A DNA stretch of 21,133 nt from a virus, in IMG/VR virus record IMGVR_UViG_3300031143_000041, positions 1 through 21,133 of that record. One strand, 5' to 3'. The position numbers and the translations under genes were made by a program. The notes beneath the pieces were generated by a model, which saw only the letters and a program-made list of their open reading frames with translations, searched no databases and was not told the DNA's origin. Shown here piece after piece: positions 5,660 to 21,133 of this stretch; position 1 is the first letter of the stretch; the number at the start of each line of letters is the position of its first letter.

Positions 5660-6781
5660 ATGGAAAATCAAGATATACACATTGGAATCGTTGGAGCAGG
5701 AAAAATCGGAACTGCCATCTATAGTTTATTAGTTGGTGAAGGTTCTGGTTATAAAATCTCCATAGCTGATATTACTCATCCAACATTTCTTTCTAGTTCT
5801 GTTACAGAAAAGGACTATGTTAAGTTGAGTGGTAGTGAAAATGGCATTGCTCAGTTTACTGATTTTGTACATGATAAAACTCTTATCATTAATGCATTAC
5901 CATTTCATTTAAATGTGAGTTTATACTATGCTTGTTATGAACATCATATTCCCTACTTTGATCTTTCTGAAGATGATGCGTTAGATAATTCTATTCACAA
6001 TCGTATTCAACTAGATAAACTACCATTCACAATGCCTCATTGTGGATTAGCTCCGGGTATATCCACAGTAATAGCAAACAATCTATCAAAAGACTTTTCT
6101 GATCTACATGAAATTAAAATTCGTGTTGGAGCTCTATCACAATTCTCAACAAACAAATTAAAGTATCATAGCTCGTGGAGTGGTGATGGGTTGGTTAATG
6201 AATATCTTGGTAAATGTCAAGTGATTCGTAATGGATCTTATGAAGAAGTAGATGCTTTGTCTGGTTATGAAATACTAAATATTGATGGTACAGATTATGA
6301 AGCTTTTCATACGTCTGGTGGTATTGGTTCTTTTGCAGCAACACTTTCTGATAATTTTCATGCAGGTGTTAATGCAGATTATAAAACACTCCGTAGAGTG
6401 GGTCATCATCAATATGTGGATTTTCTTTTTAATGATCTTAAAATACCACAAGATTTATTAACAGACATATTTAAAAAATACATCCCAACAACAACAAAAG
6501 ACGAAGTTATAATTTTTGCATCAGCAAGTGGTTATCATGCATCTAATATAAATTATAATACTAATATCTATTATAAGGTATTTAAACCAGAACTTATTCG
6601 TGGAAGAAAATATACAGCAATTGAATATACGACAGCATGTGGTGTCTTAGCTATGGTGGAATTATATTTGGATGGTAAGCTACCAAAAGAAGGATATGTT
6701 ACACAAGAGTCAGTAGAATGGAAAGATGTGTTGAGTACAACATTCGGGAGGTTTTATAAGGAGAGAAGTGTATATGAGTAG
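5660..6781 (+). CDS. saccharopine dehydrogenase-like NAD(P)-dependent oxidoreductase
   Basis: A 373-residue protein. An N-terminal Rossmann fold begins at once (HIGIVGAGKIGTAIY, with G12-x-G14-x-x-G17). The second half carries the catalytic-domain signature PHCGLAPGISTVIANNL and later GGIGSFAATL. These match the saccharopine dehydrogenase-like superfamily, which includes saccharopine dehydrogenase/reductase, lysine 6-dehydrogenase, homospermidine synthase and carboxynorspermidine synthase. All reduce or oxidise an imine joining an amine to a keto acid or aldehyde with NAD(P). The substrate cannot be read by eye. There is no Shine-Dalgarno sequence before ATG 5660 and the promoter predicts a leaderless message. 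The 3' end overlaps the primase gene by 8 bases. It is a likely auxiliary metabolic gene acting on host lysine or polyamines. Confidence 0.82.
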   Translation: MENQDIHIGIVGAGKIGTAIYSLLVGEGSGYKISIADITHPTFLSSSVTEKDYVKLSGSENGIAQFTDFVHDKTLIINALPFHLNVSLYYACYEHHIPYFDLSEDDALDNSIHNRIQLDKLPFTMPHCGLAPGISTVIANNLSKDFSDLHEIKIRVGALSQFSTNKLKYHSSWSGDGLVNEYLGKCQVIRNGSYEEVDALSGYEILNIDGTDYEAFHTSGGIGSFAATLSDNFHAGVNADYKTLRRVGHHQYVDFLFNDLKIPQDLLTDIFKKYIPTTTKDEVIIFASASGYHASNINYNTNIYYKVFKPELIRGRKYTAIEYTTACGVLAMVELYLDGKLPKEGYVTQESVEWKDVLSTTFGRFYKERSVYE

Positions 6782-7781
6782 CACCACCTGGATAGACGTA
6801 AAATATATAAATTTGTGTTCGAGCATTCTCGAAAGATTTAAACAGAAAACCAACAATTTGTGGAATTTTAGATGTCCTATATGTGGTGATTCAGAGAAGC
6901 ATAAGAACAAGTGTCGTGGATTTATCTATGAACGGAGGAATAAATATTTTTATAGATGTCATAATTGTAATGTTGGTACAAGCTTCAATAAGTTTTTAGA
7001 ACAAATCAATCCAACATTACATAGAGATTACATAACAGAAAATTATAAAGAGGATGCAGGAAAAAATAAAAATGATATAAAAGTATTACCAAAATTTAAT
7101 TTTGTTCCTGAGTTCAATAATGTTTTGGACGGTATGGTATCTATCTCATCTCTTTCACAAGATCATCCAGCACGACAATATTTACATGGAAGATTAATAC
7201 CAGAAAAACATTTTAGATATTTGTACTTATGTAAAGAATTTAAGAAGTGGACAAATACTGTTATACCAAACAAGTTTAGCTCATTAAAGTATGATGCACC
7301 ACGTTTGGTTATACCATTTTTTGATGAAAGTAAAAATGTGATAGGTTATCAAGGTCGTTCTTTTGATCCAAAAGAACAATCAAAATATATAACAATAAAA
7401 ATGAAAGGAGTAGAGAATTTAATCTATGGTCAAGAACGTCTTGATATTAATAAAAAAATATATTGCGTAGAAGGACCTCTGGATAGTTTGTTTTTACCAA
7501 ACTGTTTAGCAACAGCTGGGTTAAATTTTAAAGAGTTAAAACTTGGTCATATTATTGTACTGGACAACGAAAGGAGAAATGTTCAGATTGTAGATGCATT
7601 AAAGAAGGTAATAGCAAATGGTTATAGTGTTTGCATTTGGCCTGATAACTTGAATGAAAAAGATATCAATGAGATGATAATGAATGGAAAAACTGTAGAT
7701 GAAATCGTATCTATTATAGATAATAATACATATGCAGGCCTGCAAGCAGATTTTCAACTTTCTGAATGGAAACGATGTTAG
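6774..7781 (+). CDS. DNA primase, T4 gp61-like
   Basis: A 335-residue protein (342 in T4 gp61). ATG 6774 is chosen over GTG 6768 because it lies 10 bases after AAGGAG (6758-6763). An N-terminal zinc-binding domain has CPIC (34-37) and CHNC (62-65) around a basic beta hairpin (KCRGFIYERRNKYFY). A Toprim catalytic domain follows, with the glutamate in YCVEGPLDSLF (about residue 226), the next strand HIIVLDNERR and the conserved end CIWPDNLNEKDINEMI. It would make RNA primers for lagging-strand synthesis with the phage gp41-type helicase, which is not in this window. It sits in the block run by the promoter at 5621 and overlaps the dehydrogenase gene, so the two are co-expressed. Confidence 0.9.
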   Translation: MSSTTWIDVKYINLCSSILERFKQKTNNLWNFRCPICGDSEKHKNKCRGFIYERRNKYFYRCHNCNVGTSFNKFLEQINPTLHRDYITENYKEDAGKNKNDIKVLPKFNFVPEFNNVLDGMVSISSLSQDHPARQYLHGRLIPEKHFRYLYLCKEFKKWTNTVIPNKFSSLKYDAPRLVIPFFDESKNVIGYQGRSFDPKEQSKYITIKMKGVENLIYGQERLDINKKIYCVEGPLDSLFLPNCLATAGLNFKELKLGHIIVLDNERRNVQIVDALKKVIANGYSVCIWPDNLNEKDINEMIMNGKTVDEIVSIIDNNTYAGLQADFQLSEWKRC

Positions 7782-7790: not shown

Positions 7791-7970
7791 ATGCTTTTAA
7801 CGGAAGAACAAACCAAATATTATTTAACAGATTTGATTAACCATTACGGAGAAATAAGACAAGACGCAATAACTAGTGAAGCAGAGTATAAACAAAAAGC
7901 TTTTGAAGATATGAAAATAGTATTATTTGGAGATGATTATAATGGAGCCAAAAGAGAAACAAATACATGA
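7791..7970 (+). CDS. small hypothetical protein (59 aa)
   Basis: ATG 7791 follows a strong GGAGG (7781-7785) that begins on the base after the primase stop. The 59-residue product (MLLTEEQTKYYLTDLINHYG, then an acidic helical stretch and FGDDYNGAKRETNT) has no membrane segment, signal peptide or cysteine. It overlaps the start of thyX by 29 bases in another frame, and the ribosome site of thyX (GGAG 7929-7932) lies within it. This fills the gap between primase and thyX. No family recognised; the excellent ribosome site makes it likely to be expressed. Confidence 0.65.
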   Translation: MLLTEEQTKYYLTDLINHYGEIRQDAITSEAEYKQKAFEDMKIVLFGDDYNGAKRETNT

Positions 7971-8826
7971 GCATGGATTTGTAAGACTAATTGATGTAAT
8001 GGGTGATGACAACTGTATTGCTGATGCAGCTCGGGTTTCTTACGGAAAAGGAACTCGGTCTGCTTCAGATAATAGAAATCTAATTCGTTATTTGCTTAGA
8101 CATAAACACACATCACCACTTGAGATGGTAGAAGTTAAATTTCATCTCAAGCTTCCTATTTTTATTATGAGGCAGTTAGTAAGACATAGAACTGCATCCT
8201 TAAATGAGTATTCGGGAAGATATTCTATAATGACAGAAGAATGTTATGAACCAAGTGATGAATATTTAAAACCTCAATCCCAAGTTAATAAACAGGGGAG
8301 TGATGGTGATCTTCCCAAGATATGTAAGAACAGTTATAAACAAAAAATACATGGTGCAATTAATAAAGCTATTGTAGCATATAGATTTTTACTTGGTACA
8401 GAATCAGCAACATGGGGTGGGTTAGGATTATCAAGAGAGTTGGCAAGAACAGTTTTACCAGTATCAAACTATACAGAATGTTACTGGAAGATTGACTTGC
8501 ACAACTTTTTTCATTTTTGTCGTTTACGAATGGATAGTCATGCACAACAAGAGATACGAGACTATGCTAAAGTGATGTATGAGATGGTCAAACCAGAGGT
8601 TCCACTTGCAGCCGAAGCCTTTGAAGACTACAGTCTAAATAGTGTATCATTTAGTAGAATGGAAGTAGACGTATTACAATATGCATTTAAGAAGTTTCCA
8701 GAGATGCAGTCATCTTCTGGATTTATACAGAACATAACAAGTTATATTTCTAAATTGAAAAATGATGATAATAACTTTGGTATGAGTAACCGAGAATGGA
8801 AAGAATTAGAGGAGAAATTAAAATAA
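7942..8826 (+). CDS. thyX: FAD-dependent thymidylate synthase ThyX
   Basis: A 294-residue flavin-dependent thymidylate synthase. It methylates dUMP to dTMP using methylene-THF as carbon donor and reduced FAD (from NADPH) as reductant. The diagnostic ThyX motif RHRTASLNEYSGRY is at 81-94 (RHRxxSxNxxSxR), preceded by HTSPLEM (56-62), which is typical of the family. RMDSHAQQEIRDYA in the second half is the usual substrate-binding Arg/His region. Length is slightly above the usual 220-260 because of an insert near residues 108-135. ATG 7942 is preferred because GGAG at 7929-7932 is well spaced; starts at 7927 (TTG) and 7933 would overlap that site. It is followed directly by ribonucleotide reductase, forming a dNTP supply pair. 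Confidence 0.95.
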   Translation: MEPKEKQIHEHGFVRLIDVMGDDNCIADAARVSYGKGTRSASDNRNLIRYLLRHKHTSPLEMVEVKFHLKLPIFIMRQLVRHRTASLNEYSGRYSIMTEECYEPSDEYLKPQSQVNKQGSDGDLPKICKNSYKQKIHGAINKAIVAYRFLLGTESATWGGLGLSRELARTVLPVSNYTECYWKIDLHNFFHFCRLRMDSHAQQEIRDYAKVMYEMVKPEVPLAAEAFEDYSLNSVSFSRMEVDVLQYAFKKFPEMQSSSGFIQNITSYISKLKNDDNNFGMSNREWKELEEKLK

Positions 8827-10752
8827 ATGTTACCAACAACGTATCAGCAGTTCATACATCAAAGCAGATATGCTAGATGGCAAGAAGACAAACACAAACG
8901 TGAATCATGGGCAGAAACAGTAAAAAGATACTTTGATTTTTTTGAAGAACATCTCGGAACTAAGGCAAAAAAAGATAGAAAAGAATTAGAAGATGCAGTA
9001 TTAAAGTTAAACATTATGCCATCAATGAGGGCATTGATGACTGCTGGTGAAGCATTACATAGAGATAATGTTGCAGGATATAATTGTGCATATTTAGCTG
9101 TAAATGAAAAGAGAGCATTTGATGAATGTCTTTTTATTTTGATGTGTGGAACTGGTGTTGGTTTTTCTGTAGAACGTAGAGAGGTTGAAAAACTTCCATT
9201 GGTAGCAGATGAACTTTTTGATACAGATACAACTATTGTTGTTGCTGATTCAAAGATTGGATGGGCAAAGGCATATAAAGAATTGATCTCGATGTTATAT
9301 GCAGGACAGATTCCAAAGTGGGATATGTCTAAGATTCGTAAAGCTGGTGAACGATTAAAAACTTTTGGTGGAAGAGCATCAGGCCCTTTACCATTGGACA
9401 ATCTTTTTCGTTTTACTATAGATACATTCAAGGCTGCAATTGGGAGAAAACTATCATCTATTGAGTGTCACGATTTAATGTGTAAGATAGCAGAGATAGT
9501 TGTGGTTGGTGGTGTTCGTAGGTCTGCTTTGATTTCTCTTTCAAATCTTACAGATGAACGAATGAGAAAAGCAAAGTCTGGTCAATGGTGGTTGAATGAA
9601 ACCCAAAGATCATTATCTAATAACTCTGTAGTTTATACAGAGAAACCAGATGTAAGTATATTTCTTAAAGAATGGATGTCGTTGATTGAATCTAAATCAG
9701 GAGAACGTGGAATCTTTAATCGCTTAGCAGCAAAAAAACAAGTAGAGAAACTTGGTGATAGAAGAGATGCTAATCATAATTTTGGAACTAATCCTTGTTC
9801 AGAAATTATATTGAGAGATTCAGAGTTTTGTAATTTGACTGAGGTAGTGGTTCGTCCAAAAGATACACCAGCAACACTTAAAGAGAAAGTTCGACTTGCA
9901 TCTATACTAGGAACATGGCAGGCTTCTTTAACTAATTTTCGTTACTTATCTAAAACTTGGAAAAAGAATTGTGAGGAAGAAGCATTGCTTGGTGTATCAT
10001 TAACTGGTATTATGGATAATGAATATACTAATGGTACTCATTATGGTACAAATGAAAAAGGATTACCATCTTTGTTAGAGTCACTTAAAAATATTGCTGT
10101 TGCAACAAACAAATTGAGTGCAAAACAACTTGGTATCAATCCAGCTGCAGCTATTACTTGTGTTAAACCTTCAGGAACAGTTTCACAATTGGTTGATGCA
10201 TCTTCTGGTATTCACGCAAGACATGCACCTTACTATATTAGAACTGTAAGAGGAGATAAGAAAGACCCTTTATGTGAGTTTATGGTAAAGAAAGGTATTC
10301 CACATGAATCAGATGTAACTAAACCAGAACATACATGGGTGTTTTCTTTTCCAATTAAAACTTCTAAAGCTGCATTGTGTAGAAATGATAGAACAGCTAT
10401 TGAACAATTAAACTTTTGGAAATTGTATCAGGAGCATTGGTGTGAACATAAGCCGTCTGTTACTATAACAGTTAAAAATGAAGAGTGGCTTGATGTTGGT
10501 GCATGGGTTTATAAAAACTTTGATATGATTTCTGGTATTTCTTTTTTACCACATATAGATCATTCTTATCAACAGGCACCTTATCAGGATTGTAGTGAAG
10601 AAGAATATGAGGAAATGGTAAAGAAGATGCCTGCAACAATCGACTGGGACGAACTATCTAAATATGAACAAGAAGACCACACACGAGGTTCGCAAGAATT
10701 TGCATGTACAGGGGATAAATGTGAGGTCGTAGATTTACAATCGGAGAATTAA
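8827..10752 (+). CDS. class II (B12-dependent) monomeric ribonucleoside-triphosphate reductase
   Basis: A 641-residue adenosylcobalamin-dependent ribonucleotide reductase of the monomeric type (Lactobacillus leichmannii RTPR, about 740 residues). It reduces NTPs to dNTPs without oxygen or a separate radical subunit. All five functional cysteines are visible: Cys87 (GYNCAYL) and Cys335 as the redox pair, Cys324 in NPCSEI as the thiyl radical site with Asn322 and Glu326, and a C-terminal pair Cys627/Cys632 (CTGDKC) that passes electrons from thioredoxin. Further signatures are CGTGVGFS (107-114), GGVRRSALISLS (228-239) and KPSGTVSQL. The ATG follows the thyX stop directly. A host able to make or import cobalamin is implied. 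The absence of nrdA/nrdB in the window fits replacement by this single gene. Confidence 0.95.
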   Translation: MLPTTYQQFIHQSRYARWQEDKHKRESWAETVKRYFDFFEEHLGTKAKKDRKELEDAVLKLNIMPSMRALMTAGEALHRDNVAGYNCAYLAVNEKRAFDECLFILMCGTGVGFSVERREVEKLPLVADELFDTDTTIVVADSKIGWAKAYKELISMLYAGQIPKWDMSKIRKAGERLKTFGGRASGPLPLDNLFRFTIDTFKAAIGRKLSSIECHDLMCKIAEIVVVGGVRRSALISLSNLTDERMRKAKSGQWWLNETQRSLSNNSVVYTEKPDVSIFLKEWMSLIESKSGERGIFNRLAAKKQVEKLGDRRDANHNFGTNPCSEIILRDSEFCNLTEVVVRPKDTPATLKEKVRLASILGTWQASLTNFRYLSKTWKKNCEEEALLGVSLTGIMDNEYTNGTHYGTNEKGLPSLLESLKNIAVATNKLSAKQLGINPAAAITCVKPSGTVSQLVDASSGIHARHAPYYIRTVRGDKKDPLCEFMVKKGIPHESDVTKPEHTWVFSFPIKTSKAALCRNDRTAIEQLNFWKLYQEHWCEHKPSVTITVKNEEWLDVGAWVYKNFDMISGISFLPHIDHSYQQAPYQDCSEEEYEEMVKKMPATIDWDELSKYEQEDHTRGSQEFACTGDKCEVVDLQSEN

Positions 10753-10753
10753 T

Positions 10754-11506: not shown

Positions 11507-11528
11507 TAAGTCCTTATTTTACAAGGCC

Positions 11529-11547: not shown

Positions 11548-11581
11548 TCCTATTAGAACCAACAACTTACCTTATACCTTT

Positions 11582-11620
11582 TTCCTTGTGTTTGATACTA
11601 TAGTTTGCTATAATAGTACT
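11582..11620 (+). promoter_or_regulatory. strong sigma70-type promoter with extended -10
   Basis: TTGTGT (11586-11591), 17-base spacer, then TGCTATAAT (11606-11614). Predicted +1 is 11621, giving a 21-base leader that contains AAAGGA before ATG 11642. It shares 24 of 33 positions with the promoter at 5621-5653, including TTCCTTGT and TTTG before the -10, so both probably belong to one timed class of this phage. Confidence 0.75.
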
Positions 11621-11641
11621 ATAAATGAGAAAGGAAACCAT

Positions 11642-11872: not shown

Positions 11873-12135
11873 TGAGTATATTTGATGAAATGTTTGACGA
11901 TGAGAATTTAGACGAACATGAATTTGAAATCTGGTTGGATTCTATAAATGAATCTGGTGATCCAGAAAGAGATGAGGAGTGTTATTATAAGGAGATGGAT
12001 AGAATAAATAAAGAAACCTTTTCACAAGAAATTGGTGAAAATATGGAGTCAGAAGAAGAACTAATGGAACTAGTACAATTTCCAGAATTTAGAGTAAAGG
12101 GAACTGATTATATATGTACATACTCGGTCAATTGA
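11872..12135 (+). CDS. very acidic hypothetical protein (87 aa)
   Basis: An 87-residue protein dominated by Asp and Glu (MSIFDEMFDDENLDEHEFE at the start, MESEEELMELVQ later) with no membrane segment and only two cysteines. AAAAGGAG precedes the ATG, which overlaps the previous stop. Small acidic proteins made early by T4-like phages often bind host enzymes or mimic DNA, and the early-type promoter upstream fits such a role, but there is no motif to support a target. No family recognised. Confidence 0.65.
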   Translation: MSIFDEMFDDENLDEHEFEIWLDSINESGDPERDEECYYKEMDRINKETFSQEIGENMESEEELMELVQFPEFRVKGTDYICTYSVN

Positions 12136-12136
12136 A

Positions 12137-12403
12137 ATGAAGAAATGGTTAATAGATGATTGGAAGCATAATCGTTTTCGATTATTTTGTGAAACAATCG
12201 GCTCTTTATGTTTTATTAGTATTATGTTGATGATGGCTTGGTATGGTGATACAGTTTCTATTCTCACAGTATTTCTTGTACAGATAGCTGGTTCATCATT
12301 ACATATCATTAATGGATATATGAGAAGTAGTGTTAGTTTAATTGTATTGAATGTAGTAGTAATAGCAATAGCAATTTTTGGAATTGGGAGGATGTTTTTA
12401 TGA
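12137..12403 (+). CDS. three-helix membrane protein (88 aa)
   Basis: An 88-residue membrane protein beginning MKKWLIDDWKHNRFR, a basic amphipathic head, followed by three hydrophobic segments at about 16-35, 40-60 and 66-87. The first part (W-K-H-N-R-F-R then E-T-I-G) resembles small membrane proteins I recall from T4-like cyanophages, of unknown function. The ATG comes two bases after the previous stop. The stop overlaps the next ATG (ATGA). No transport motif is visible; a role in changing the host inner membrane during infection is only a guess. Confidence 0.7.
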   Translation: MKKWLIDDWKHNRFRLFCETIGSLCFISIMLMMAWYGDTVSILTVFLVQIAGSSLHIINGYMRSSVSLIVLNVVVIAIAIFGIGRMFL

Positions 12404-13251
12404 TTTACGAGATTATGAAATGTAATGATGGTGTGACTAGAGCAGTTAAAGTGGTTAATGGTGTAAAAGTAGATCCATCAGTAGTAGATGAATCAGTTGT
12501 TAAGGTAGAAAAAACATCCACAAAACCAATTGTTTCTATACAGGATCGATTACATAGTAAAATAGAAGACTATATTTCATCAATTGAGGAACGAGTTGAT
12601 GATTATATAGATAGTGGTTATAAGATGAAATATGATGTATATAATCATCTGTTAGAACTTGGATGTAAAGCAGCTCACGCACGAAAAATGAGGCCCTTTT
12701 ATGTTGATTGTTTTAATGAGTTGGTTGATCTGTATAATCAGGAAGATGAATATTACATAGAGGCGTGGAGCAGTCTTAGACCAAAACATCAAAAAATGTT
12801 GATGGATTTTTATGGAGTTATTGTAGATGATTTGGATCGTATAATAAAGAACTCTACAGCACAACGAAAACCACGCAAGAAGAAAACATTATCAGCTTCA
12901 AGACTTATTAACAAGTTAAAGTATCAACAAGAATTTTCTGATTTGAAGTTGGTTAGTATAAATCCTGAAAAGATAATTGGTGCAAATGAGCTTTGGGTAT
13001 TTAATACAAAGAACAATAAGTTAGGTGTTTATAAGGCAGTTAATACAATAAGAGGTTTCTCTGTTAAAGGTTGTACAATACAACATTTTGATGAATCAGA
13101 GTCGGTTGAGAAGACGGCAAGAAAACCAAAAGAAGCAGTAAGCATTTTGAAGAAACGATCTTTGAAAAATGTGTTGCAAAACATGACAACCAAAGAACGT
13201 CAACTAACGGGTAGAATTAATGCCCAAACAATATTATTGGGGGTATTCTAA
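12400..13251 (+). CDS. conserved T4-like marine phage protein of unknown function (283 aa)
   Basis: A 283-residue protein with three visible parts: a short N-terminal beta region (1-40), a helical acidic region (about 45-150, including IEDYISSIEERVDDYI and a Trp/Tyr-containing segment), a basic linker (QRKPRKKKTLS, 155-165), and a C-terminal domain (about 168-250) with the pattern KIIGANELWVFNTKNNKLGVY and GFSVKGCTI. I recall the C-terminal pattern from conserved hypothetical proteins of T4-like marine phages, where the function is not known. The basic linker suggests nucleic acid contact. The ATG overlaps the previous stop and the stop overlaps the next ATG, so it lies within a tightly coupled operon. 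Confidence 0.75.
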   Translation: MIYEIMKCNDGVTRAVKVVNGVKVDPSVVDESVVKVEKTSTKPIVSIQDRLHSKIEDYISSIEERVDDYIDSGYKMKYDVYNHLLELGCKAAHARKMRPFYVDCFNELVDLYNQEDEYYIEAWSSLRPKHQKMLMDFYGVIVDDLDRIIKNSTAQRKPRKKKTLSASRLINKLKYQQEFSDLKLVSINPEKIIGANELWVFNTKNNKLGVYKAVNTIRGFSVKGCTIQHFDESESVEKTARKPKEAVSILKKRSLKNVLQNMTTKERQLTGRINAQTILLGVF

Positions 13252-13484
13252 TGTATAAAAATATTATTATTATTTTTCTTGTATTTATGTTATGTTCTTT
13301 GGTGTTTCAGAATAAACAAAACATAAAAATTATTATACATAACTTAGCTGAAACAAAAAAACTGGTTAGTGAAACAAAAGATTATGTTGCGAAAACTTTT
13401 GAAGATGAATTTTCTGTTGAGGAATTTGTTGTTGGTATAGAGATACCATCTTTACATCCAGAGGATGAGGAGGAGGTTAAATGA
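13251..13484 (+). CDS. small protein with N-terminal membrane anchor (77 aa)
   Basis: A 77-residue protein with one N-terminal hydrophobic segment (NIIIIFLVFMLCSLVF, about residues 4-19), then a helical Lys/Glu-rich region (TKKLVSETKDYVAKTFEDEF) and an acidic end (HPEDEEEVK). The layout fits a single-span inner-membrane protein with its soluble part outside or, if uncleaved, a short anchor. TAATG and ATGA overlaps on the two sides couple it to its neighbours. No family recognised. Confidence 0.6.
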   Translation: MYKNIIIIFLVFMLCSLVFQNKQNIKIIIHNLAETKKLVSETKDYVAKTFEDEFSVEEFVVGIEIPSLHPEDEEEVK

Positions 13485-13699
13485 ATAAGGGTAATGAAGA
13501 TTTAGTAGGAGACAGCACTCAAAAAACATCAAGAGGTGTTGTTAAAAAATTAACAGAAAAGAAAGGACAGATTGTATCAAAGAAAAAACTTTATCATTTT
13601 ACAATGGATGCTGTATTTGGTCATATTGAGAATGATATGTTAGTTGATGTGTTACTTGCATCGAATAATTTTGTAACTAGAGTAGAGAGGGTATATTAA
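13481..13699 (+). CDS. small OB/cold-shock-like beta protein, paralogue of the 2081 gene
   Basis: A 72-residue protein whose residues 19-71 (from GVVKKLTEKKGQIV to FVTRVERV) align without gaps to residues 3-55 of the protein at 2081-2350, with about 20 of 53 identical. A flexible N-terminal tail of 18 residues (MNKGNEDLVGDSTQKTSR) replaces the acidic C-terminal tail of the other copy. The spacing of short beta strands and glycines suggests a small barrel of the OB or cold-shock kind. ATGA and TAATG overlaps on both sides show close coupling. One copy in the late-type block and one in the block behind an early-type promoter suggests separate timing of related functions. Function unknown. Confidence 0.68.
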   Translation: MNKGNEDLVGDSTQKTSRGVVKKLTEKKGQIVSKKKLYHFTMDAVFGHIENDMLVDVLLASNNFVTRVERVY

Positions 13700-13956
13700 T
13701 GAATAGAGAAACTTTGATTAAGAGCTTAAGAAAGAAGGCTATGAGAATTAAGTTTACGAAAGTAAATGGAGAAGAACGAGTAATGGATTGTACTTTGCAG
13801 GAACATATGATTCCTCCAACAGATCCAAATAAACGTAAAGAGAATGAAGAGGTTTTACCAGTTTGGGATATTGGTAAAGGTGAATGGAGATCGTTTCGTA
13901 TGGATTCTATTATTAACTTAGAAATATTACAATATCAAGATAACGGGGTACTTTGA
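13699..13956 (+). CDS. SH3-barrel-like protein (DUF2693-like)
   Basis: An 85-residue protein. After a short basic helix (MNRETLIKSLRKKAM) it reads IKFTKVNGEERVMDCTLQ, then EVLPVWDIGKGEWRSFRMDSI. This pattern (FTKxxGxxRxMxCTL ... VWDxxxxxWRSFR) matches DUF2693, an SH3-like small barrel family found in many T4-like phages and some bacterial genomes. It appears to be a general small barrel with no assigned reaction. The ATG overlaps the previous stop. The following gene is the RNase H-like nuclease, one base after the stop, so a link to replication is plausible. Confidence 0.78.
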   Translation: MNRETLIKSLRKKAMRIKFTKVNGEERVMDCTLQEHMIPPTDPNKRKENEEVLPVWDIGKGEWRSFRMDSIINLEILQYQDNGVL

Positions 13957-13957
13957 C

Positions 13958-14812
13958 ATGATTTTACTTGATTTCAGTAACATAATTATAGGCAGTATAA
14001 TGGTATCAGCTAAAATACCAAATGAGCAAAGATTTTCGGAGGATTTTATCCGTCATCTAGTGTTGAATAGTATTAGGTCTTATCGTAAAAAATATAGTGG
14101 TAAGTATGGTGAGATGGTTATTTGTACAGATTGTGATTCTAGTTGGAGAAAGGTTGCATTTCCATACTACAAGGCTCATAGGAAAATACAGAGAGCAAAA
14201 CAGTCAGCAAAAGAAGGAGTTGATTGGTCTGCATTATTTGATACCATTAACAAGATAATAGAAGAGTTACAGACATTCTTTCCATATAAAGTGATAAGGA
14301 TACCACATGCTGAGGGAGATGATGTGATAGGAGTGCTTGCAAAGCATATAAAAGAACCTTGTTTAGTTGTTTCTAGTGATAAAGACTTCAATCAGTTGTA
14401 TAAATATAAGACAGTTAGACAGTTCTCACCTATGAAGCAGAAGATGATAAAGGGAATTGATGCAGATGCTTATTTGAAAGAACACATTATTCGTGGTGAT
14501 AAGGGAGATGGTATTCCAAATATCTTATCAGCTGGTGATTGTATTGTTTCTGGAGTAAGGCAAAAACCAATTTCAAAAAAGAAAGTTTTAAATTGGTTAC
14601 AACAAAAACCTGAGGATTTTTGTAACAATGGGATGTTAGATGGATGGAATCGAAACCAAGAAGTAATTGATTTTGATTATATTCCACCTACAATTGTTCT
14701 TGCTATATTAGACTCATATAATAAACAAGTACCAGCAAAACGTAGTGGGTTGTTAAATTACTTTATTAAACATAAGTTAAAATTATTAATTGATAATATA
14801 GGAGATTTTTAA
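13958..14812 (+). CDS. rnh: T4 RNase H-like 5'-3' exonuclease (flap nuclease family)
   Basis: A 284-residue protein (T4 Rnh is 305) of the FEN/5' nuclease family that removes RNA primers from Okazaki fragments. Acidic metal-binding residues appear in order: Asp5 (LLDFSN), Asp58/Asp60 (CTDCDSSWRK), Glu119-Asp121-Asp122 (AEGDDVIG), Asp141/Asp143 (SSDKDF) and Asp181/Asp184 (RGDKGDGIPN), the last beginning the helix-hairpin-helix-type region. KAHRK and the following Lys/Arg stretch fit the DNA-binding arch. The C-terminal third (SGLLNYFIKHKLKLL) is typical of the phage branch. The ribosome site before ATG 13958 is weak, but the gene is coupled to its neighbours. It acts with the primase at 6774 in lagging-strand processing. 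Confidence 0.9.
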   Translation: MILLDFSNIIIGSIMVSAKIPNEQRFSEDFIRHLVLNSIRSYRKKYSGKYGEMVICTDCDSSWRKVAFPYYKAHRKIQRAKQSAKEGVDWSALFDTINKIIEELQTFFPYKVIRIPHAEGDDVIGVLAKHIKEPCLVVSSDKDFNQLYKYKTVRQFSPMKQKMIKGIDADAYLKEHIIRGDKGDGIPNILSAGDCIVSGVRQKPISKKKVLNWLQQKPEDFCNNGMLDGWNRNQEVIDFDYIPPTIVLAILDSYNKQVPAKRSGLLNYFIKHKLKLLIDNIGDF

Positions 14813-15261
14813 TGCCAGATAATGAAACATTGATGATTGGTGAAATACTTGCCAAAGTTGATTCAGCTAGATCTAAACAAGCAAAAATAAAAATATTGGA
14901 ACAGTATAAAAGTATTCCAGTTCTTCAACATTTTTTAAGAGGATTATTTGATCCAAAAATTAAATGGGCAATAACAGAAACACCAGATTATGCAGAAGAT
15001 GATATCACACCAGAAGGAGAAGAAGCAAATTCTTTGTATATTGAAATACCAAAGTGTTCTCTTTTTGTAAAAGATCATCCAAAAGCAAAAGGTGTAAAAC
15101 TAATAAGACTTAAACAAATTTTAGTTCAGGTGTTGGAAAGTTTACATCCATCAGAAGCATCTTTGTATATGCAAATGTTGAAAAAGAAAACTAAGGTAAA
15201 AGGTCTAACATCTAAATTAGTGTTAGAAGTCTTCCCAGGTATGTATAAAGAAGGAGTATAA
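14812..15261 (+). CDS. conserved T4-like phage protein (DUF6433-like)
   Basis: A 149-residue protein: an N-terminal helical part (MIGEILAKVDSARSKQAKI, then IPVLQHFLRGLFDPKIKWAI), a middle segment ending in the beta strand SLYIEIPKC, and a C-terminal helical part (LKQILVQVLESLHPSEASLYMQML, then GLTSKLVLEVFPGM). The phrases PVLQHFLRGLFDPKIKW and LVLEVFPGM match a family I recall as DUF6433, widespread in T4-like marine phages beside the RNase H gene and of unknown function. It starts on the last base of the rnh stop (TAATG). Association with replication is inferred from position only. Confidence 0.78.
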   Translation: MPDNETLMIGEILAKVDSARSKQAKIKILEQYKSIPVLQHFLRGLFDPKIKWAITETPDYAEDDITPEGEEANSLYIEIPKCSLFVKDHPKAKGVKLIRLKQILVQVLESLHPSEASLYMQMLKKKTKVKGLTSKLVLEVFPGMYKEGV

Positions 15262-15263
15262 AA

Positions 15264-15602
15264 ATGGCAATAGGTGTTACAACAGGAGGTGAAAGTTTAA
15301 AAACTAATGTTAGTGTGAAATCTGGTAGAAAGAAATTATATGATAACCAAGCATTAGTAGTTGAAGCTTTCAAAGAAAAGTATATCAAGGTAGATTTAGT
15401 TGATGAAGAAGATCATCATTTTAAATTGAATTGGGATGGAGAAAAATATGAAGGTAACTTTTTTGGTACTACATTAACTTGTGAGTATGATGTGATTAGA
15501 GATTTTAAAGCAGATATTTCTGCACCAGAAAGAAACGAGTCGGGTTCTCCTGTTTATGCAAAGAGATCAAAAGGAGGTAGACCAGATCGTTATCACGAAT
15601 AG
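15264..15602 (+). CDS. small hypothetical phage protein (112 aa)
   Basis: A 112-residue protein. A flexible start (MAIGVTTGGESLKTNVSVKS) leads to a basic helix, then a beta-rich core (YIKVDLVDEEDHHFKLNWDG, then YEGNFFGTTLTCEYDV) and a disordered Gly/Arg-rich tail (SKGGRPDRYHE). Only one cysteine and no membrane segment are seen. AAGGAG before ATG 15264 supports the start. I do not recognise a family. It sits in the block led by the promoter at 11582, between DUF6433-like and SprT-like genes. Confidence 0.65.
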   Translation: MAIGVTTGGESLKTNVSVKSGRKKLYDNQALVVEAFKEKYIKVDLVDEEDHHFKLNWDGEKYEGNFFGTTLTCEYDVIRDFKADISAPERNESGSPVYAKRSKGGRPDRYHE

Positions 15603-15611
15603 GAGATATAT

Positions 15612-16058
15612 ATGTATGTTTCAGTAGAAAACCCAGTTACACAAGAAATTCGTAACTATGAAACAAACATGTGTAGAGCTTATAAAGAAAATAAAATTAG
15701 TAAGACTAGATATTTTAAATCATTATATCCAACCAAACATCTAATTACAAGATGGTTTAATATACTGAATGAGGAAATATTTAATAACGAGATTTATCCA
15801 TTCTATGACATTGAGATTATACAAAAGAAGGGATGTCATGCAGAACATATTCCATTAGAATATAGTGGAAAAATCTATGCTATTTTATCTATGACAGATC
15901 GTTTTATTAATAAGAATGAGTTTTTGTTTACATTAGCACATGAGATGGTTCATCAATGGCAATGGATGCACTTGTATAGATCGGATCATGGTCAATCGTT
16001 TTGGAAATGGAAGAATCGATTGGCACAATTTGAAATTCCATTAGGAGAAAGTATTTAA
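15612..16058 (+). CDS. SprT-like zinc metalloprotease
   Basis: A 148-residue protein of the SprT/Spartan type. An N-terminal helical part (RWFNILNEEIFNNEIYPFY) leads to the catalytic helix AHEMVHQWQ (109-117), in which HExxH is at 110-114, followed by RSDHGQSFWKW (123-133), where His126 would be the third zinc ligand. This matches SprT-like proteins, which in eukaryotes (Spartan) cut DNA-protein crosslinks. The family usually continues into a C-terminal zinc ribbon, which is missing here, although the next gene encodes a separate zinc ribbon starting on the last base of this stop. AGGAGA precedes ATG 15612. A role in processing proteins stuck on DNA is plausible. Confidence 0.85.
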   Translation: MYVSVENPVTQEIRNYETNMCRAYKENKISKTRYFKSLYPTKHLITRWFNILNEEIFNNEIYPFYDIEIIQKKGCHAEHIPLEYSGKIYAILSMTDRFINKNEFLFTLAHEMVHQWQWMHLYRSDHGQSFWKWKNRLAQFEIPLGESI

Positions 16059-16315
16059 TGCCATACTATGAATTTGAATGTGAAAAATGTTCTCACGAGT
16101 TTGAAGATTTTCAAATATTAGCAAATATTGATGTTCCTTTAAAACAACCATGTCCTTCTTGTAAGAAAATTGGACACATACAGAGGTTGATTTCTGGTGC
16201 AGATATATGTGATCCAGTTTCGTTAGGTATAAAAAAAGTTCCAGCTGGGTATAATGAGGTTATTAGAAATATACAAAAGAACAACCCAGGTAATACGATA
16301 GAGTTAAGAGATTAG
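16058..16315 (+). CDS. FmdB-type zinc ribbon protein
   Basis: An 85-residue protein beginning MPYYEFECEKCSHEFEDFQ, with zinc-ligand pairs CEKC (Cys8/Cys11) and CPSC (Cys32/Cys35) and then HIQRLISGAD. This is the FmdB regulatory/zinc-ribbon family signature, small proteins thought to assist regulators or enzymes. The rest (PAGYNEVIRNIQKNNPG) is a polar helical tail. The start overlaps the SprT-like stop (TAATG, with AGGAGA upstream), so the two are made together, and this ribbon could supply the one that SprT proteins normally carry. The family call is good; the role is inference. Confidence 0.82.
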   Translation: MPYYEFECEKCSHEFEDFQILANIDVPLKQPCPSCKKIGHIQRLISGADICDPVSLGIKKVPAGYNEVIRNIQKNNPGNTIELRD

Positions 16316-16324
16316 GAGATTAAA

Positions 16325-17470
16325 TTGTTACAAAAAAGTATCAGTATTTTAATTGTTATTGGTAGTATTTTAATATTTAGTAGTTGTGGTTCTATAACTA
16401 CTGTTACCGCTTTAAGCACAGTTGGAACTGCGGCTGCGAGTAAAGTTATTGAACACCAAGTTGGTTATGGGATTAGGACACCACAAACGATTATAGAACA
16501 GGTGATGCCTTCTGTAGTAACAATTGTTTCTGAATCACGTAATTCAAGAAACTTGCCACCTCGTCAAAGATTTACTAATCCGAGAGAAACACCAATATTA
16601 CCACAACCAAACAATAACGAATTTCAATCTGGTACTGGTTTTGTTATCAAAGAAGATGGTACAGTTATTACCAATTATCATGTCGTAGCAAATAGTATAG
16701 GTAAACCAGATGCTGTGCTTCGTGTTATTTTTAGTAATGATTCTGTTTATACAGCAAAAGTTTTTAATTATGATAAACTATCTGATATAGCTATTTTAAA
16801 GATTGTTAATAATGAAAATAAAAAATTCCCAGCAATTACTTGGGGTGATAAGGCGAAACTTGGAAGTCATGCAATCATTATTGGTTCGCCCATTGGCATG
16901 GACTTTAGTGTGTCTTTTGGGATCGTTTCTGCTGTTGACAGGATTGTTCCAGATGCTTCTCCTCCATTTGTTCCATATGTTCAAACAGATGCAGCGATGA
17001 ATCGTGGTAACTCTGGAGGTCCGTTGTTTGATGCAGATGGAGGTGTTATTGGTATTAACACTTTAATATTATCACCAGCACCAGGTGTTGATACTGGTAG
17101 TGTTGGATTAGGATTTGCTATTGACGGTCAGTATGCACAGAATATCATAAAACGATTAGAGGGTGGTGATAAAATAAAATGGAGTTACATGGGGATTCTT
17201 TATCGTTTATTAGATATGGAAGAAACCGAAAGTAACAATTTACAATTTGGAAGGAATGTTATTATTAAAGATGTTTTGAGTAATGGTTCAGCTTATAACA
17301 TATTGAAAAAAAATGATATTATTCAAAAACTGGATGGAGTAGTTGTTACACATAAAAAATTTGCATCAATGATTGCTAAGTTAAAACCTGGTACTACTAT
17401 CGAATTGACAGTTTTACGAGATGGTAAAGAAGAAACTTTAAAATTAATTCTAACACAGAGGCCGGCGTAA
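16325..17470 (+). CDS. HtrA/DegP-type lipoprotein serine protease with one PDZ domain
   Basis: A 381-residue protein. TTG 16325 is the start because AGGAGA lies upstream and the signal peptide begins here (KSISILIVIGSILIFSSC, lipobox FSSC, Cys21), so it should be lipid-anchored in the envelope. A disordered Pro/Asn-rich linker (about 70-98) precedes a trypsin-like domain with GTGFVI (103-108), catalytic His119 (TNYHVV), Asp154 (SDIAIL) and Ser230 (RGNSGGPLF). One PDZ-like domain (about 285-378; IIKDVLSNGSAYNILKKNDII) completes it. All three catalytic residues are present, so it should be active. HtrA proteases degrade or repair misfolded envelope proteins. Such a host-like periplasmic protease is unusual in a phage and probably acquired from a bacterium. 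Confidence 0.92.
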   Translation: MLQKSISILIVIGSILIFSSCGSITTVTALSTVGTAAASKVIEHQVGYGIRTPQTIIEQVMPSVVTIVSESRNSRNLPPRQRFTNPRETPILPQPNNNEFQSGTGFVIKEDGTVITNYHVVANSIGKPDAVLRVIFSNDSVYTAKVFNYDKLSDIAILKIVNNENKKFPAITWGDKAKLGSHAIIIGSPIGMDFSVSFGIVSAVDRIVPDASPPFVPYVQTDAAMNRGNSGGPLFDADGGVIGINTLILSPAPGVDTGSVGLGFAIDGQYAQNIIKRLEGGDKIKWSYMGILYRLLDMEETESNNLQFGRNVIIKDVLSNGSAYNILKKNDIIQKLDGVVVTHKKFASMIAKLKPGTTIELTVLRDGKEETLKLILTQRPA

Positions 17471-17471
17471 T

Positions 17472-17975
17472 ATGTCACCAGTTAAAATGATGCTTAGAAG
17501 TATGATGATGTATCAACGTAATCGTATGTTATCACAAGATTGTATTGATCTTTCTACAAGAATATATAATAATTTACTGGACATAGATGAATGGAAGCAG
17601 ACAGGAAATATAAATATATACAAGAGTGTTGGTAATGAAGTTTCTACAGAAAAAATAATCAATGAAGCTTCTAAGACAAATAAAATTATTTATCATCCAA
17701 CAGCTGAACCAGAGGATAATATTATTGAAGTAGATTTAGTCATTGTCCCAGGTGTGGTGTTTGATGAAAAACTTGCAAGATATGGTAGAGGTAAAGGTTA
17801 TTATGATAGATTTCTTTGTAGGTTACCAAAGAAGACAATTGTGATTGCTGTTGGATATGATTTTCAAGTGATAACAAGAAAATGGAGATTAGGATTGAAG
17901 AGTCATGATATAAAGATGGATTATATTATAACAGAGAAGAGGGTTATTCAAAAGAAGGGTACATTTTTTTACTAA
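17472..17975 (+). CDS. 5-formyltetrahydrofolate cyclo-ligase-like protein
   Basis: A 167-residue protein of the MTHFS/FAU1 family, which uses ATP to turn 5-formyl-THF into 5,10-methenyl-THF and so returns an inhibitory folate to the active pool. Family motifs seen are DLVIVPGVVFDE (88-99), RYGRGKGYYDRF (103-114), the substrate/ATP loop, and MDYIITEKRVI (149-159) near the end. The N-terminal Lys/Arg stretch (K5 and LR at 8-9, QRNR at 15-18) matches the usual nucleotide-binding start. It is shorter than typical bacterial members (about 180-200), mainly in the middle. ThyX at 7942 consumes methylene-THF, so the two fit one folate circuit. The start has no clear ribosome site and is probably coupled. 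Confidence 0.85.
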   Translation: MSPVKMMLRSMMMYQRNRMLSQDCIDLSTRIYNNLLDIDEWKQTGNINIYKSVGNEVSTEKIINEASKTNKIIYHPTAEPEDNIIEVDLVIVPGVVFDEKLARYGRGKGYYDRFLCRLPKKTIVIAVGYDFQVITRKWRLGLKSHDIKMDYIITEKRVIQKKGTFFY

Positions 17976-17990
17976 ATAAGGAGCAACGGG

Positions 17991-18533
17991 GTGAGATATT
18001 ATATACTTCCCCTTGTTATGTTATTGATGATACCTACATTATTATATGGAGCAGATAGTAATACAGTCAGTAGTTCAACTGTTACAGGAACAACAACAGT
18101 TGACCGAACACCTGGCACAGCTGTGTCTCCTAGTATAGTTATTAATAATACTGATGTTTGTGTAACTGGAATTAGTGGTGCAGCTCAAACAGCATGGTTT
18201 GGTTTTTCAATGGGCAAGACTATTGAAGATAAGAATTGTGAAAGACTAAAACTTGCTAGAACACTTTTTGGTCAAGGAATGAAGGTGGCTAGTGTAGCAC
18301 TATTATGTCAAGATGTCAGAGTTTTTAAAGCTATGATGATGGCAGGAACTCCATGTCCTATAGATGGTAAGATTGGAGAAGCTGCAAAACAGATATGGGA
18401 GAAAGAACCAAAACGTAGACCAGACTATCACGAATGGCGAAAAAGAGATAAGAATAAAGAAGCAGTAAACGAATTAGATTCTTTCAAATCAAATGAGTAC
18501 AATGCAGGTAGTTGGGATGATGATAACTATTAA
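17991..18533 (+). CDS. exported hypothetical protein with conserved marine-phage pattern
   Basis: A 180-residue protein starting at GTG 17991, seven bases after AAGGAG (17978-17983). It has a signal peptide (MRYYILPLVMLLMIPTLLYGA, cleavage likely after about residue 20) and then a Thr/Ser/Val-rich linker. The core reads NTDVCVTGISGAAQ (about 53-66), FSMGKTIEDKNCERLKLART and VALLCQDVRVFKAMMMAGTPC, with four cysteines that could form disulfides. This core matches exported proteins I recall from marine phages, always unnamed. The C-terminal tail is charged (PKRRPDYHEWRKRDKNKEA) and helical. Envelope or periplasm localisation is well supported; function is unknown. Confidence 0.72.
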   Translation: MRYYILPLVMLLMIPTLLYGADSNTVSSSTVTGTTTVDRTPGTAVSPSIVINNTDVCVTGISGAAQTAWFGFSMGKTIEDKNCERLKLARTLFGQGMKVASVALLCQDVRVFKAMMMAGTPCPIDGKIGEAAKQIWEKEPKRRPDYHEWRKRDKNKEAVNELDSFKSNEYNAGSWDDDNY

Positions 18534-18536
18534 AAA

Positions 18537-18565
18537 GCTGGTGAGGCATTCCTAGTCCATCCAGC
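18537..18565 (+). other. 5' stem of the structured intergenic element
   Basis: GCTGG (18537-18541) can pair with CCAGC (18561-18565), and inside this AGG (18544-18546) can pair with CCT (18551-18553) around CATT. It lies directly before the 13-bp hairpin, so the region 18537-18607 could fold as one RNA unit. It is less AT-rich than its surroundings. Known riboswitch classes were not matched by eye. Confidence 0.35.
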
Positions 18566-18569
18566 GGAG

Positions 18570-18619
18570 ACTCCATACACCAATGCACCCTTAGTGGTGT
18601 ATGGAGTTGCCCAATTTTT
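18570..18619 (+). terminator. 13-bp perfect hairpin, possible terminator
   Basis: ACTCCATACACCA (18570-18582) and TGGTGTATGGAGT (18595-18607) pair perfectly over 13 bp around a 12-base loop. A T5 run follows at 18615-18619, seven bases after the stem, so termination is possible but not textbook. With the 5' stem at 18537 it may instead be a structured leader of the next gene, whose ribosome site AAAAGGA is at 18625-18631. Confidence 0.5.
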
Positions 18620-18636
18620 AAATCAAAAGGAACAGT

Positions 18637-19404
18637 ATGATTTCATTTTTAGAATACGTTAATGTAAGAAAACATAATAAAGAGTGGCAGTTTATGGCTG
18701 ATGGTTATTTACCACTATCACCAGCTATTCTTAAAGATTTTGAAGTGGATGTAAAAAATGTATATCATGTTACCACTATCAAAGGATTGAAAAAACTTGC
18801 ACGATTACAAGGTAAACGTGTAGATGTCTCTGGCTTCACTAAAGGTTCAAAGGGTGTTAGTAAAGGACTACTTAATGATGCTGAAGTATTAGTCAAACTA
18901 GATGGTAAGAGTTCTGTTGAATTTGAGAATGATGTGAATACTAGAACAGATAGAAATGGTATTAGATGGTTATCCCCTAATGGTAATGTATCATCAAGAC
19001 TTAATGCTAGAATATTTCAATTTGGTCAAACGATATTCCCAAAGATAATAAAACATTTTGATATACTATCGAAGGGAACTAAATCAATGTTTACGCATGA
19101 TGTAGGTAATTGGATACATGATAAAGATGGTAAGACTAAAAAAGAGTTTATTAAGTTTTATCATCAAGAAGCTAAGAAGATAATCAATAGTTCTCTTATT
19201 AAAGCAATGCAGAATGATATTTCATATAATGATATAATGGGTCATAATCATAACGAGATACTAATACATGATTTCAAGATAACAAACTCAAAACTCATAC
19301 GATCTAGTGATCCTGATAAGGCAGAGAAAATGTGGAGTAATGCAGAAGCTGCTGGTATGACAAGTTTTGCTGTAATAGATGCAGTAGAGGTAGAGAAAAT
19401 ATAA
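18637..19404 (+). CDS. hypothetical protein, possible ADP-ribosyltransferase-like with capsid-targeting-like start
   Basis: A 255-residue protein. AAAAGGA precedes ATG 18637. The N-terminus MISFLEYVNV resembles capsid-targeting starts (M-x-x-aromatic-x-E-aromatic-V). Three segments in order recall ADP-ribosyltransferase folds: VYHVTTIKGLKKL (42-54; first motif H/R), VDVSGFTKGSKG (62-73; the STS/STF-like strand), and HNEILIHDFKI (205-215; a Glu-bearing strand near the end). T4 Alt, an encapsidated ADP-ribosyltransferase that modifies host RNA polymerase, would be the functional precedent. The match is by eye and weak; GFT in place of STS and a lone Glu instead of ExE argue for caution. Otherwise the function is unknown. 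It begins a block after the structured intergenic element. Confidence 0.6.
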   Translation: MISFLEYVNVRKHNKEWQFMADGYLPLSPAILKDFEVDVKNVYHVTTIKGLKKLARLQGKRVDVSGFTKGSKGVSKGLLNDAEVLVKLDGKSSVEFENDVNTRTDRNGIRWLSPNGNVSSRLNARIFQFGQTIFPKIIKHFDILSKGTKSMFTHDVGNWIHDKDGKTKKEFIKFYHQEAKKIINSSLIKAMQNDISYNDIMGHNHNEILIHDFKITNSKLIRSSDPDKAEKMWSNAEAAGMTSFAVIDAVEVEKI

Positions 19405-20615
19405 TGTTACAACTATTACTTATACTTTTATTATCTACTAGTGCATTTGCAGAAACAGCAACTACTGCTGATGTAACAGAGAAAGATGCAGGTGCAACTC
19501 ATCTTTGTTCAAGAGGTGATAGTGCATGTGGAGCTGATCCACGGACAGATATAAATTCAGATGGTGGTAGTGATGATGATATAGTTTATTGGGATCAACA
19601 TGGGCATATTAGTTCTCAATATGGTAACGGGACTTATGATACAGATTTTAAGATTACAAATGATATTAGTACATTTATGACTGAAGATGAAATGCTTCAG
19701 GGTTTCACTATGGATAGTTCTATTGGATTAAGAGATAGAAACTATGTAGGTGGTGATGCATTTAGAATAAAAATTAACGTAACTGATGGAACAACTACAT
19801 ATTCAAACACAACAGATTTTACGACTAGTGCAGGTCAGTCATACGAAACTGTTATCAGTCAACTCATTATCCCAGAAAATACATTATCATATGATTTAGC
19901 AACATTCGGATTGATTCTTAGTGGTGATAGTTTGACTAATGGTTATAACGGACCTCAAACAAATAGTATTGGATTAACTGCTACATATGAATTAATTAAT
20001 AACGTGCAGGATACTGTTTTAGATTTAGTAGCATCGGCTGTATCTGATATACTTGAGACATCTACAGATACTACAATGCAAGTTAATGTGTCATCCCCAT
20101 CAGGTGTTACTAATATTAATATACCTGTTAGTGTTAGTGCTGGTGTAGTAACAATGTCTGTTCCTACTGTTGCTGGTACAATAGAGAAAATACAAATTAA
20201 TACTGGAATGGCATCAAGTTCAAGTCAACCAGAACAAGTAGCAGAAGTAAAAACAGCAGTTGCTGAAGTAGAATCAGCTGTAGAAGAAGACCAAGAATCT
20301 GATTCAGAAGAACAAAAACAAGAGACAAAAAAAACCAAAGCAGACAAAGCAAAAGCAGTACAAGTAATAGTCACAAGAGTTTTACAAGCAGTTCAATTGG
20401 CGGGTGGAGATACAGATAGCACTAAATTAGCATTGATGGGTATTATGGGTAATGCAGGTTTTAGTTCATATCAAGAAGCATCTATTCCTGATGTTGCATT
20501 TTATGATACAACAGTTACATACGAGTCACCTGTTTATAATGATCCGTTAGGTAATGTATTTAATATGGGAAGTAATCAAATGATGGATAGCATGATAAAT
20601 TCCCAATACAACTAG
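19404..20615 (+). CDS. large exported hypothetical protein (403 aa)
   Basis: A 403-residue protein with a clean signal peptide (MLQLLLILLLSTSAFA, cleavage after residue 16). The mature part has an N-terminal Asp/Gly/Cys-containing region (Cys35 and Cys42), a beta-rich Thr/Ser/Asn domain (about 60-270), a charged Glu/Lys region likely to form a coiled coil (about 277-322), then a hydrophobic helical stretch (VQVIVTRVLQAVQLAGG) and a tail rich in Tyr, Asn and Met. It starts on the last base of the previous stop (TAATG). I recognise no family; beta-rich exported proteins may be surface or outer-membrane proteins. Phages rarely carry exported proteins this large, so transfer from a bacterium is possible. 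Confidence 0.7.
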   Translation: MLQLLLILLLSTSAFAETATTADVTEKDAGATHLCSRGDSACGADPRTDINSDGGSDDDIVYWDQHGHISSQYGNGTYDTDFKITNDISTFMTEDEMLQGFTMDSSIGLRDRNYVGGDAFRIKINVTDGTTTYSNTTDFTTSAGQSYETVISQLIIPENTLSYDLATFGLILSGDSLTNGYNGPQTNSIGLTATYELINNVQDTVLDLVASAVSDILETSTDTTMQVNVSSPSGVTNINIPVSVSAGVVTMSVPTVAGTIEKIQINTGMASSSSQPEQVAEVKTAVAEVESAVEEDQESDSEEQKQETKKTKADKAKAVQVIVTRVLQAVQLAGGDTDSTKLALMGIMGNAGFSSYQEASIPDVAFYDTTVTYESPVYNDPLGNVFNMGSNQMMDSMINSQYN

Positions 20616-20623
20616 GAGATGAA

Positions 20624-21133
20624 ATGACTAACGCTCAAGCTGAAAAAGAAAAAATCAAAAAGATTATAAGATCGACTCACGAAAATCTTGGAAAAGTAAA
20701 TGCGAAGGGTCAAACGTATACTGATATAAATGATATGTTTTATGATTCAGAACAAAAACCTGTTTTCTTTACTGGTAGTGAAGTTATCAAAGAAGCTATT
20801 AGACGAGCAAGTGTTGGAACATCTGTCGCATATCCAATTACACCACAGAGTGAAGCAGCTGCATTGATTGGTGAATTATATGCAGAAGGATACTTAGATG
20901 AATACTTTAGAGGTGAAAGTGAATTTGCAGTAATGGGACAATGTGCAGGTGCATCGTTTGGTGGGCATAGAGTGTTTACTACTACAGCAGGTCCCGGAAC
21001 TCTTAGAGCAATGGAAAACTTTCCAATGTGGGCAGGGTCACGACTACCAATTCAAGTTTGTGTAACTTGTAGAGGTATTAACTCTCCGTTAAGTATTCAA
21101 CCAGACACCTTAGAAATACATTATCTGTTAGAA
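20624..21133 (+). CDS. 2-oxoacid:ferredoxin oxidoreductase alpha subunit (PorA-like), 3' truncated by window end
   Basis: AGGAGA precedes ATG 20624, and 170 residues are read before the window ends without a stop. After about 48 residues of extra N-terminus, the sequence follows the alpha subunit of pyruvate/2-oxoacid:ferredoxin oxidoreductases: GSEVIKEAIRRA (51-62), VAYPITPQSE (68-77, the YPITP signature), GESEFAVMGQCAGASFGGHR (97-116), VFTTTAGPGTL (117-127) and RGINSPLSIQPD (150-161). The enzyme oxidises a 2-oxoacid with CoA to acyl-CoA, CO2 and reduced ferredoxin, using thiamine diphosphate and iron-sulfur clusters on partner subunits. The beta subunit should lie just to the right. It follows the exported protein by nine bases, so it belongs to the same phage operon. 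The exact substrate is not resolved. Confidence 0.88.
   Translation, partial: MTNAQAEKEKIKKIIRSTHENLGKVNAKGQTYTDINDMFYDSEQKPVFFTGSEVIKEAIRRASVGTSVAYPITPQSEAAALIGELYAEGYLDEYFRGESEFAVMGQCAGASFGGHRVFTTTAGPGTLRAMENFPMWAGSRLPIQVCVTCRGINSPLSIQPDTLEIHYLLE

Follow-up and report, generated by a model that had tools for sequence, protein, structure and literature searches.

The question raised by this locus is why a virus should carry part of an enzyme of central carbon metabolism, and what such a gene could do during infection. The window, by which we mean the whole stretch of DNA analysed, is an entire virus record of 21,133 bp that ends inside a gene resembling the alpha subunit of a 2-oxoacid:ferredoxin oxidoreductase (OFOR). 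The 5' part of this gene (170 codons, 20624..21133, plus strand) was delimited from its ATG and a Pfam match. Its frame runs from the ATG at 20624 to the last base of the window, encoding 170 aa with no stop, and because the window is the whole virus record, it is the end of the contig, rather than a stop codon, that truncates the gene. An 8-bp gap separates it from an upstream gene (19404..20615, plus strand); the 403-aa product has a hydrophobic stretch at its N terminus, and the gene keeps its position and order in three related virus contigs, L002, L003, and L004.

The match of the window's alpha fragment to Pfam POR_N (PF01855) reaches E 2.9e-33 and 116 bits, the cut-off for this family being 27 bits. 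The motifs YPITP, GESEFAVMG, and RGINSPLSIQPD are all present, as are R150 and the first half of POR_N, in agreement with the preliminary description of the gene as an OFOR alpha subunit. In an alignment of 23 relatives, T73, E98/E100, and R150 are invariant; T73 and R150 also align with the Moorella PFOR, while the glutamate aligns clearly only with OFORs that have a separate alpha subunit. We take the GESE glutamate to be a catalytic-type residue and the conserved arginine to be the one that meets the substrate carboxylate. A predicted alpha structure has a mean pLDDT of 76, and its best fold matches per Foldseek are the alpha subunits of oxalate and pyruvate OFORs (E ~1e-23). As judged from its sequence, the gene is the alpha subunit (domains I and II, thiamine-diphosphate site) of a five-subunit-type OFOR. 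The N-terminal extension of roughly 48 residues, which had been considered unusual, is present in the cellular alphas of Nitrospina and Nitrospira as well, and confidence in its model is good from about residue 21 on.

The remainder of the gene is found in L002 (IMGVR 3300027779_002373, 32 kb), whose DNA is 94.9% identical to positions 10621-21133 of the window. The window and L002 alpha proteins are identical across their overlap, and L002:10001-11266 encodes a complete alpha of 421 aa with POR_N and PFOR_II in one chain (PF01855, E 7e-58; PF17147, E 2e-20). A stop or frameshift just beyond the window's edge, which would have spoken against the original reading, is thus absent from L002. Its alpha frame overlaps that of a first beta subunit (beta-1, 310 aa), which in turn abuts a second (beta-2, 295 aa); the two betas are paralogs with 43% identity. 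Downstream of them lie genes for an Nfu/NifU-C protein, then a YfhL-type 2[4Fe-4S] ferredoxin, then an IscA-like protein; a PurM-like gene and an aldehyde dehydrogenase come further on. The gene order in L004 is similar, except that the ferredoxin precedes the Nfu-like gene. Alpha, beta-1, and beta-2 are all complete in both L002 and L004, with overlapping starts. Both betas contain a TPP_enzyme_C domain, and those of L002, L004, and L005 retain the GDG...N thiamine motif and four [4Fe-4S] cysteines (invariant C52, C55, C82, and C240; G129-G131, N158, and N163). The expectation that a beta subunit and a gamma or ferredoxin gene would lie to the right was therefore borne out in part: two betas, a ferredoxin, and Fe-S assembly genes are there, but a gamma was not found.

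A protein search of virus contigs returned six loci, and altogether the alpha gene is found on seven virus contigs. Several of these carry unambiguous phage genes. The 126-kb contig L005 encodes a portal, a major head protein, a tail sheath, a terminase, UvsX, and a single-strand-binding protein, and in L006 and L007 the neighbors of alpha include T4-like baseplate genes. Within the window itself, four genes of phage type share the strand of alpha, namely a phage DNA primase (6768..7781; phrog_47, E 8e-72), a ThyX thymidylate synthase (7927..8826), a class II type ribonucleotide reductase of phage nucleotide metabolism (8827..10752; phrog_367, E 3e-189), and, in the same gene run as alpha, a T4 RNase H-like 5'-3' exonuclease (13958..14812; PF02739, PF09293, and phrog_107), which is a phage hallmark. 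That the window's gene stops at a contig end would, taken alone, be compatible with a mis-join, and one could suppose that the OFOR genes arrived recently as passengers, or are products of chimeric assembly, and do nothing for the phage. However, the same junction occurs in separate contigs, further genes lie on both sides of alpha in L002, L005, and L007, and the 126-kb contig joins alpha to portal, major head protein, terminase, and tail sheath genes. A chimera of phage and bacterial DNA is consequently out for the window's clade; the case is weaker for L006, a contig of 8.4 kb with alpha near its end.

Selection and composition speak against passengers as well. With dS unsaturated, dN/dS for alpha lies at 0.13-0.18 among L002, L004, and L005, indicating purifying selection, and the window and L002 alphas differ at synonymous sites (pS 0.11) with zero amino acid changes. 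GC3 in the window's clade is 0.18-0.20 versus 0.31-0.50 in the host genes, and the genes have therefore adapted to phage composition. With these points, we regard the passenger or chimera explanation as hardly credible. The structural genes of related contigs, the phage replication genes of the window, the donor tree described below, and dN/dS below 0.2 instead mark alpha as a metabolic gene of host origin that is under selection in a genuine phage genome, so that the claim that it is truly phage-borne, on several independent T4-like contigs and flanked by phage genes, stands.

Where the gene came from was addressed by scanning bacterial and archaeal genomes, one for each species, which gave 289 alpha relatives. 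The best 80 of these 289 are essentially all from Nitrospina or Nitrospira, with identity up to 90%, and the few relatives labelled otherwise (e.g., a Chloroflexi bin) place inside Nitrospina/Nitrospira clades in the tree. This tree, the kind of analysis that had been proposed for finding the donor lineage, was built from 89 alphas and puts Nitrospina/Nitrospira on the donor side. The window, L002, L003, L004, and L005 form one alpha clade (100/99), sister to a single Nitrospinaceae alpha, L008 (100/98); L006 pairs with a different Nitrospina alpha, L020 (100/99), and L007 with a third, L035 (100/98). The tree forces at least three label changes between phage and cell, and therefore there were several captures, or a single capture followed by losses or transfers back. 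Beta trees agree with the alpha tree in that Nitrospina-type phage betas cluster with Nitrospina; two contigs with only beta-2 cluster with Nitrospira, as do, by closest match, two large contigs with only beta-1 (~84-88% identity). From this gene kinship, the phage host is very probably a Nitrospina-like nitrite oxidiser, and the contigs are likely to be marine. No tRNA or RNA element giving a host link was found within the window.

The relevant host operons are of two kinds. Operon 1 encodes a delta-like protein (~214 aa), alpha, beta, a gamma of PF01558 type by sequence similarity, and a small ferredoxin; operon 2 encodes alpha2, beta2, gamma2, and a small ferredoxin, and contains the ortholog of phage beta-2. 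In Nitrospina, delta adjoins operon 1 but was not seen next to operon 2; there is also another delta-like gene, which is unlinked. Nitrospina gracilis is described as having a five-subunit POR and an OGOR without delta, both serving CO2 fixation by the reverse TCA cycle (Lücker et al., PMC3578206). Because the delta linkage fits this description, we assign operon 1 to POR and operon 2 to OGOR, and the window's gene would therefore be a POR alpha; the POR/OGOR assignment is putative, drawn from operon context and one paper (PMC3578206). Phage alpha and beta-1 thus probably derive from the host POR operon and beta-2 from the second host operon, that of the 2-oxoglutarate enzyme (OGOR). The phage ferredoxin (112-114 aa) shares 73-81% identity with a ferredoxin that Nitrospina encodes elsewhere and is not the 93-aa epsilon of the host operon.

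Compared with the five-subunit POR/OGOR systems named for Nitrospina gracilis, Nitrospira, Hydrogenobacter, and Aquifex (PMC3578206, PMC10052474), the phage genes are recognizably orthologous to those of Nitrospina/Nitrospira in alpha, beta-1 (operon 1), and beta-2 (operon 2), with the same alpha N-terminal extension and catalytic motifs. The phage operons differ from the host operons in having no gamma, no operon-type delta or epsilon beside alpha and beta, and a different spacing, and only in the phages does the second-operon beta adjoin the first-operon alpha and beta.

The missing gamma, which is present in the host OFOR operons, deserves closer attention. Among 20 virus records, three of them contigs of 108, 126, and 176 kb and none known to be a complete genome, no PF01558 was found; the same search found a match in 11 of 14 control genomes. 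Scans of all IMG/VR virus contigs with a host gamma and with a gamma alignment, which rely on short conserved patterns, likewise returned no gamma. A gamma gene could lie in the missing part of the incomplete phage genomes; a phage with a complete OFOR including gamma was rejected for all records at hand. Because no gamma was found, the phage set does not amount to a complete enzyme. Alpha itself is patchy: it occurs in 3 of the 16 records of one set, and elsewhere in L003, L004, L006, and the window. Several phages have beta-1 or beta-2 alone, with no alpha on the contig, and the recurring unit is thus the beta subunit, which alpha joins in some phages. We also observed two virus contigs (L136, 176 kb; L137, 89 kb) in which a Nitrospira-type POR beta is the only OFOR subunit found.

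One reading of this pattern is that the phages make a gamma-less enzyme of their own, in which one alpha serves two betas with new chemistry or a new electron acceptor, the phage ferredoxin. The lack of gamma in every phage record examined is consistent with it, as is the operon itself, where alpha, beta-1, and beta-2 overlap or abut and a ferredoxin follows downstream. Nevertheless, the many phages with a beta and no alpha on the contig do not look self-sufficient, and the phage subunits share ~64-93% identity with host subunits whose genes accompany a gamma gene; we consider such an enzyme very unlikely. A different possibility is an interchangeable module, in which one alpha would combine with either beta, without a gamma of its own, and retune or replace both CO2-fixing OFORs of the host simultaneously by exchange of subunits, having evolved repeatedly in phages of nitrite oxidisers. 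We regard this as a speculative and rather improbable proposal.

The reading that we favor, and hold to be probable though well short of assured, is that a T4-like phage captured a Nitrospina-like POR alpha and that phage catalytic subunits work with host gamma, delta, and epsilon to sustain CO2 fixation. The alpha would have been taken from a Nitrospina-like nitrite oxidiser, the probable host, and the phage would encode just the catalytic subunits and helpers for Fe-S maturation. These subunits would assemble with gamma, delta, and epsilon of the host and boost or replace an O2-labile catalytic core while host gene expression is shut down, with the phage Nfu, IscA, and ferredoxin helping to mature Fe-S clusters and to supply electrons. 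In this way, two reverse-TCA carboxylations might be kept going during infection, namely acetyl-CoA plus CO2 to pyruvate and succinyl-CoA plus CO2 to 2-oxoglutarate. Five-subunit OFORs of Aquifex are O2-sensitive (PMC10052474). Enzyme activity, hybrid assembly, the reductive direction, and the benefit to the phage are what we infer from gene content and kinship.

The direction of the reaction is the point on which we depart from the preliminary description. It held that the gene would supply acetyl-CoA and low-potential electrons, which presumes the oxidative direction, whereas the enzymes of the donor lineage run reductively in the reverse TCA cycle. Run oxidatively, the enzymes would draw on host stores or amino acids for pyruvate and 2-oxoglutarate, yield acyl-CoA together with CO2 and reduced ferredoxin, and so feed energy metabolism and biosynthesis once nitrite oxidation fails in infection. 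OFORs are generally reversible, and the L005 genes near the OFOR match proline dehydrogenase, tyrosine phenol-lyase/tryptophanase (beta-eliminating lyase), and aldehyde dehydrogenase, all of which would suit an oxidative role. All three matches, however, fall below the NCBIfam equivalog cut-offs, L004 and L006 have no catabolic genes beside the OFOR, and the donor enzymes are of the anabolic five-subunit type of reverse-TCA autotrophs (PMC3578206). We view the oxidative direction as unlikely, if still worth keeping in mind, above all for L005.

OFOR-type metabolic genes in Nitrospira phages are already known. From Lake Baikal, Coutinho et al. (2020) reported T4-like phages of Nitrospirota (VP_99 and VP_1723) with OFOR/ferredoxin genes, including a POR-beta-like 'ferredoxin oxidoreductase', an OGOR epsilon subunit, a ferredoxin, and an Fe-S assembly gene, and proposed that viruses modulate dark carbon fixation via the reverse TCA cycle (PMC7678222). 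Those phages resemble the present ones in being T4-like, in having nitrite-oxidiser hosts, and in carrying a POR-beta-like gene, a ferredoxin, and an Fe-S assembly gene; they differ in infecting freshwater Nitrospira and in having an OGOR epsilon, and the accessible text of that paper mentions neither an alpha nor a beta pair (PMC7678222). The present phages belong with the Nitrospina lineage and combine alpha and two betas from two host enzymes with Nfu and IscA in one operon. New here are thus marine Nitrospina-type phages, alpha and two betas of different host enzymes in a coupled operon, repeated capture, and a consistent lack of gamma. In the open-access literature, with the phrases tried, we found no report of a Nitrospina phage; two marine virus papers (PMC10224230 and PMC12254263) leave ferredoxin and the TCA cycle unmentioned, and a soil nitrifier-virus paper leaves ferredoxin unmentioned.

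Cyanophage psbA offers a parallel, as there the phage replaces the labile D1, the catalytic core of a large complex whose other partners come from the host. Supply of a core subunit would be analogous in the phage OFOR, while the enzyme and the energy metabolism differ. By this analogy, the pattern of a beta, sometimes an alpha, and never a gamma yields a testable hypothesis, namely that the O2-labile catalytic core runs short in infection. Among marine nitrite oxidisers, Nitrospina is reportedly the one met most often, and its CO2 fixation proceeds through the reverse TCA cycle (PMC3578206); phages with catalytic subunits of both CO2-fixing OFORs would tie infection to dark-ocean carbon fixation and nitrification.

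We would like to note several further observations. A close alpha copy in isolated phages was sought in a phage collection, which gave only three distant records (31-37% identity); these (MT836945, MT835724, and MT837202) are short, unannotated human-faecal 'Bacteriophage sp.' entries with a distant OFOR alpha and may be bacterial fragments. Also on the plus strand of the window are an HtrA/DegP-like serine protease (trypsin-like plus PDZ domains, with a lipoprotein-type signal; 16325..17470), which has homologs in L002-L004, with a protein in a similar position in L113, and, in the same co-directional gene run as alpha, a 5-formyltetrahydrofolate cyclo-ligase-like gene (17472..17975; PF01812, E 2e-25). 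The latter, together with the PurM-like gene of L002 (L002:15046-15996), suggests possible folate/purine support. A saccharopine-dehydrogenase-like protein is common to several phages (window 5660-6781; L005:10483-11613; L131:13695-14816), and in L005 its gene adjoins the proline dehydrogenase-like and tyrosine phenol-lyase/tryptophanase-like genes, forming an unexplained set for amino acid metabolism. Finally, an aldehyde dehydrogenase recurs near the OFOR genes (L002:17891-19360; L005:4850-6373; L113:14821-16302); its best NCBIfam match, below the cut-off, is alpha-ketoglutaric semialdehyde dehydrogenase, and it is 54-55% identical to a Nitrospina gene.
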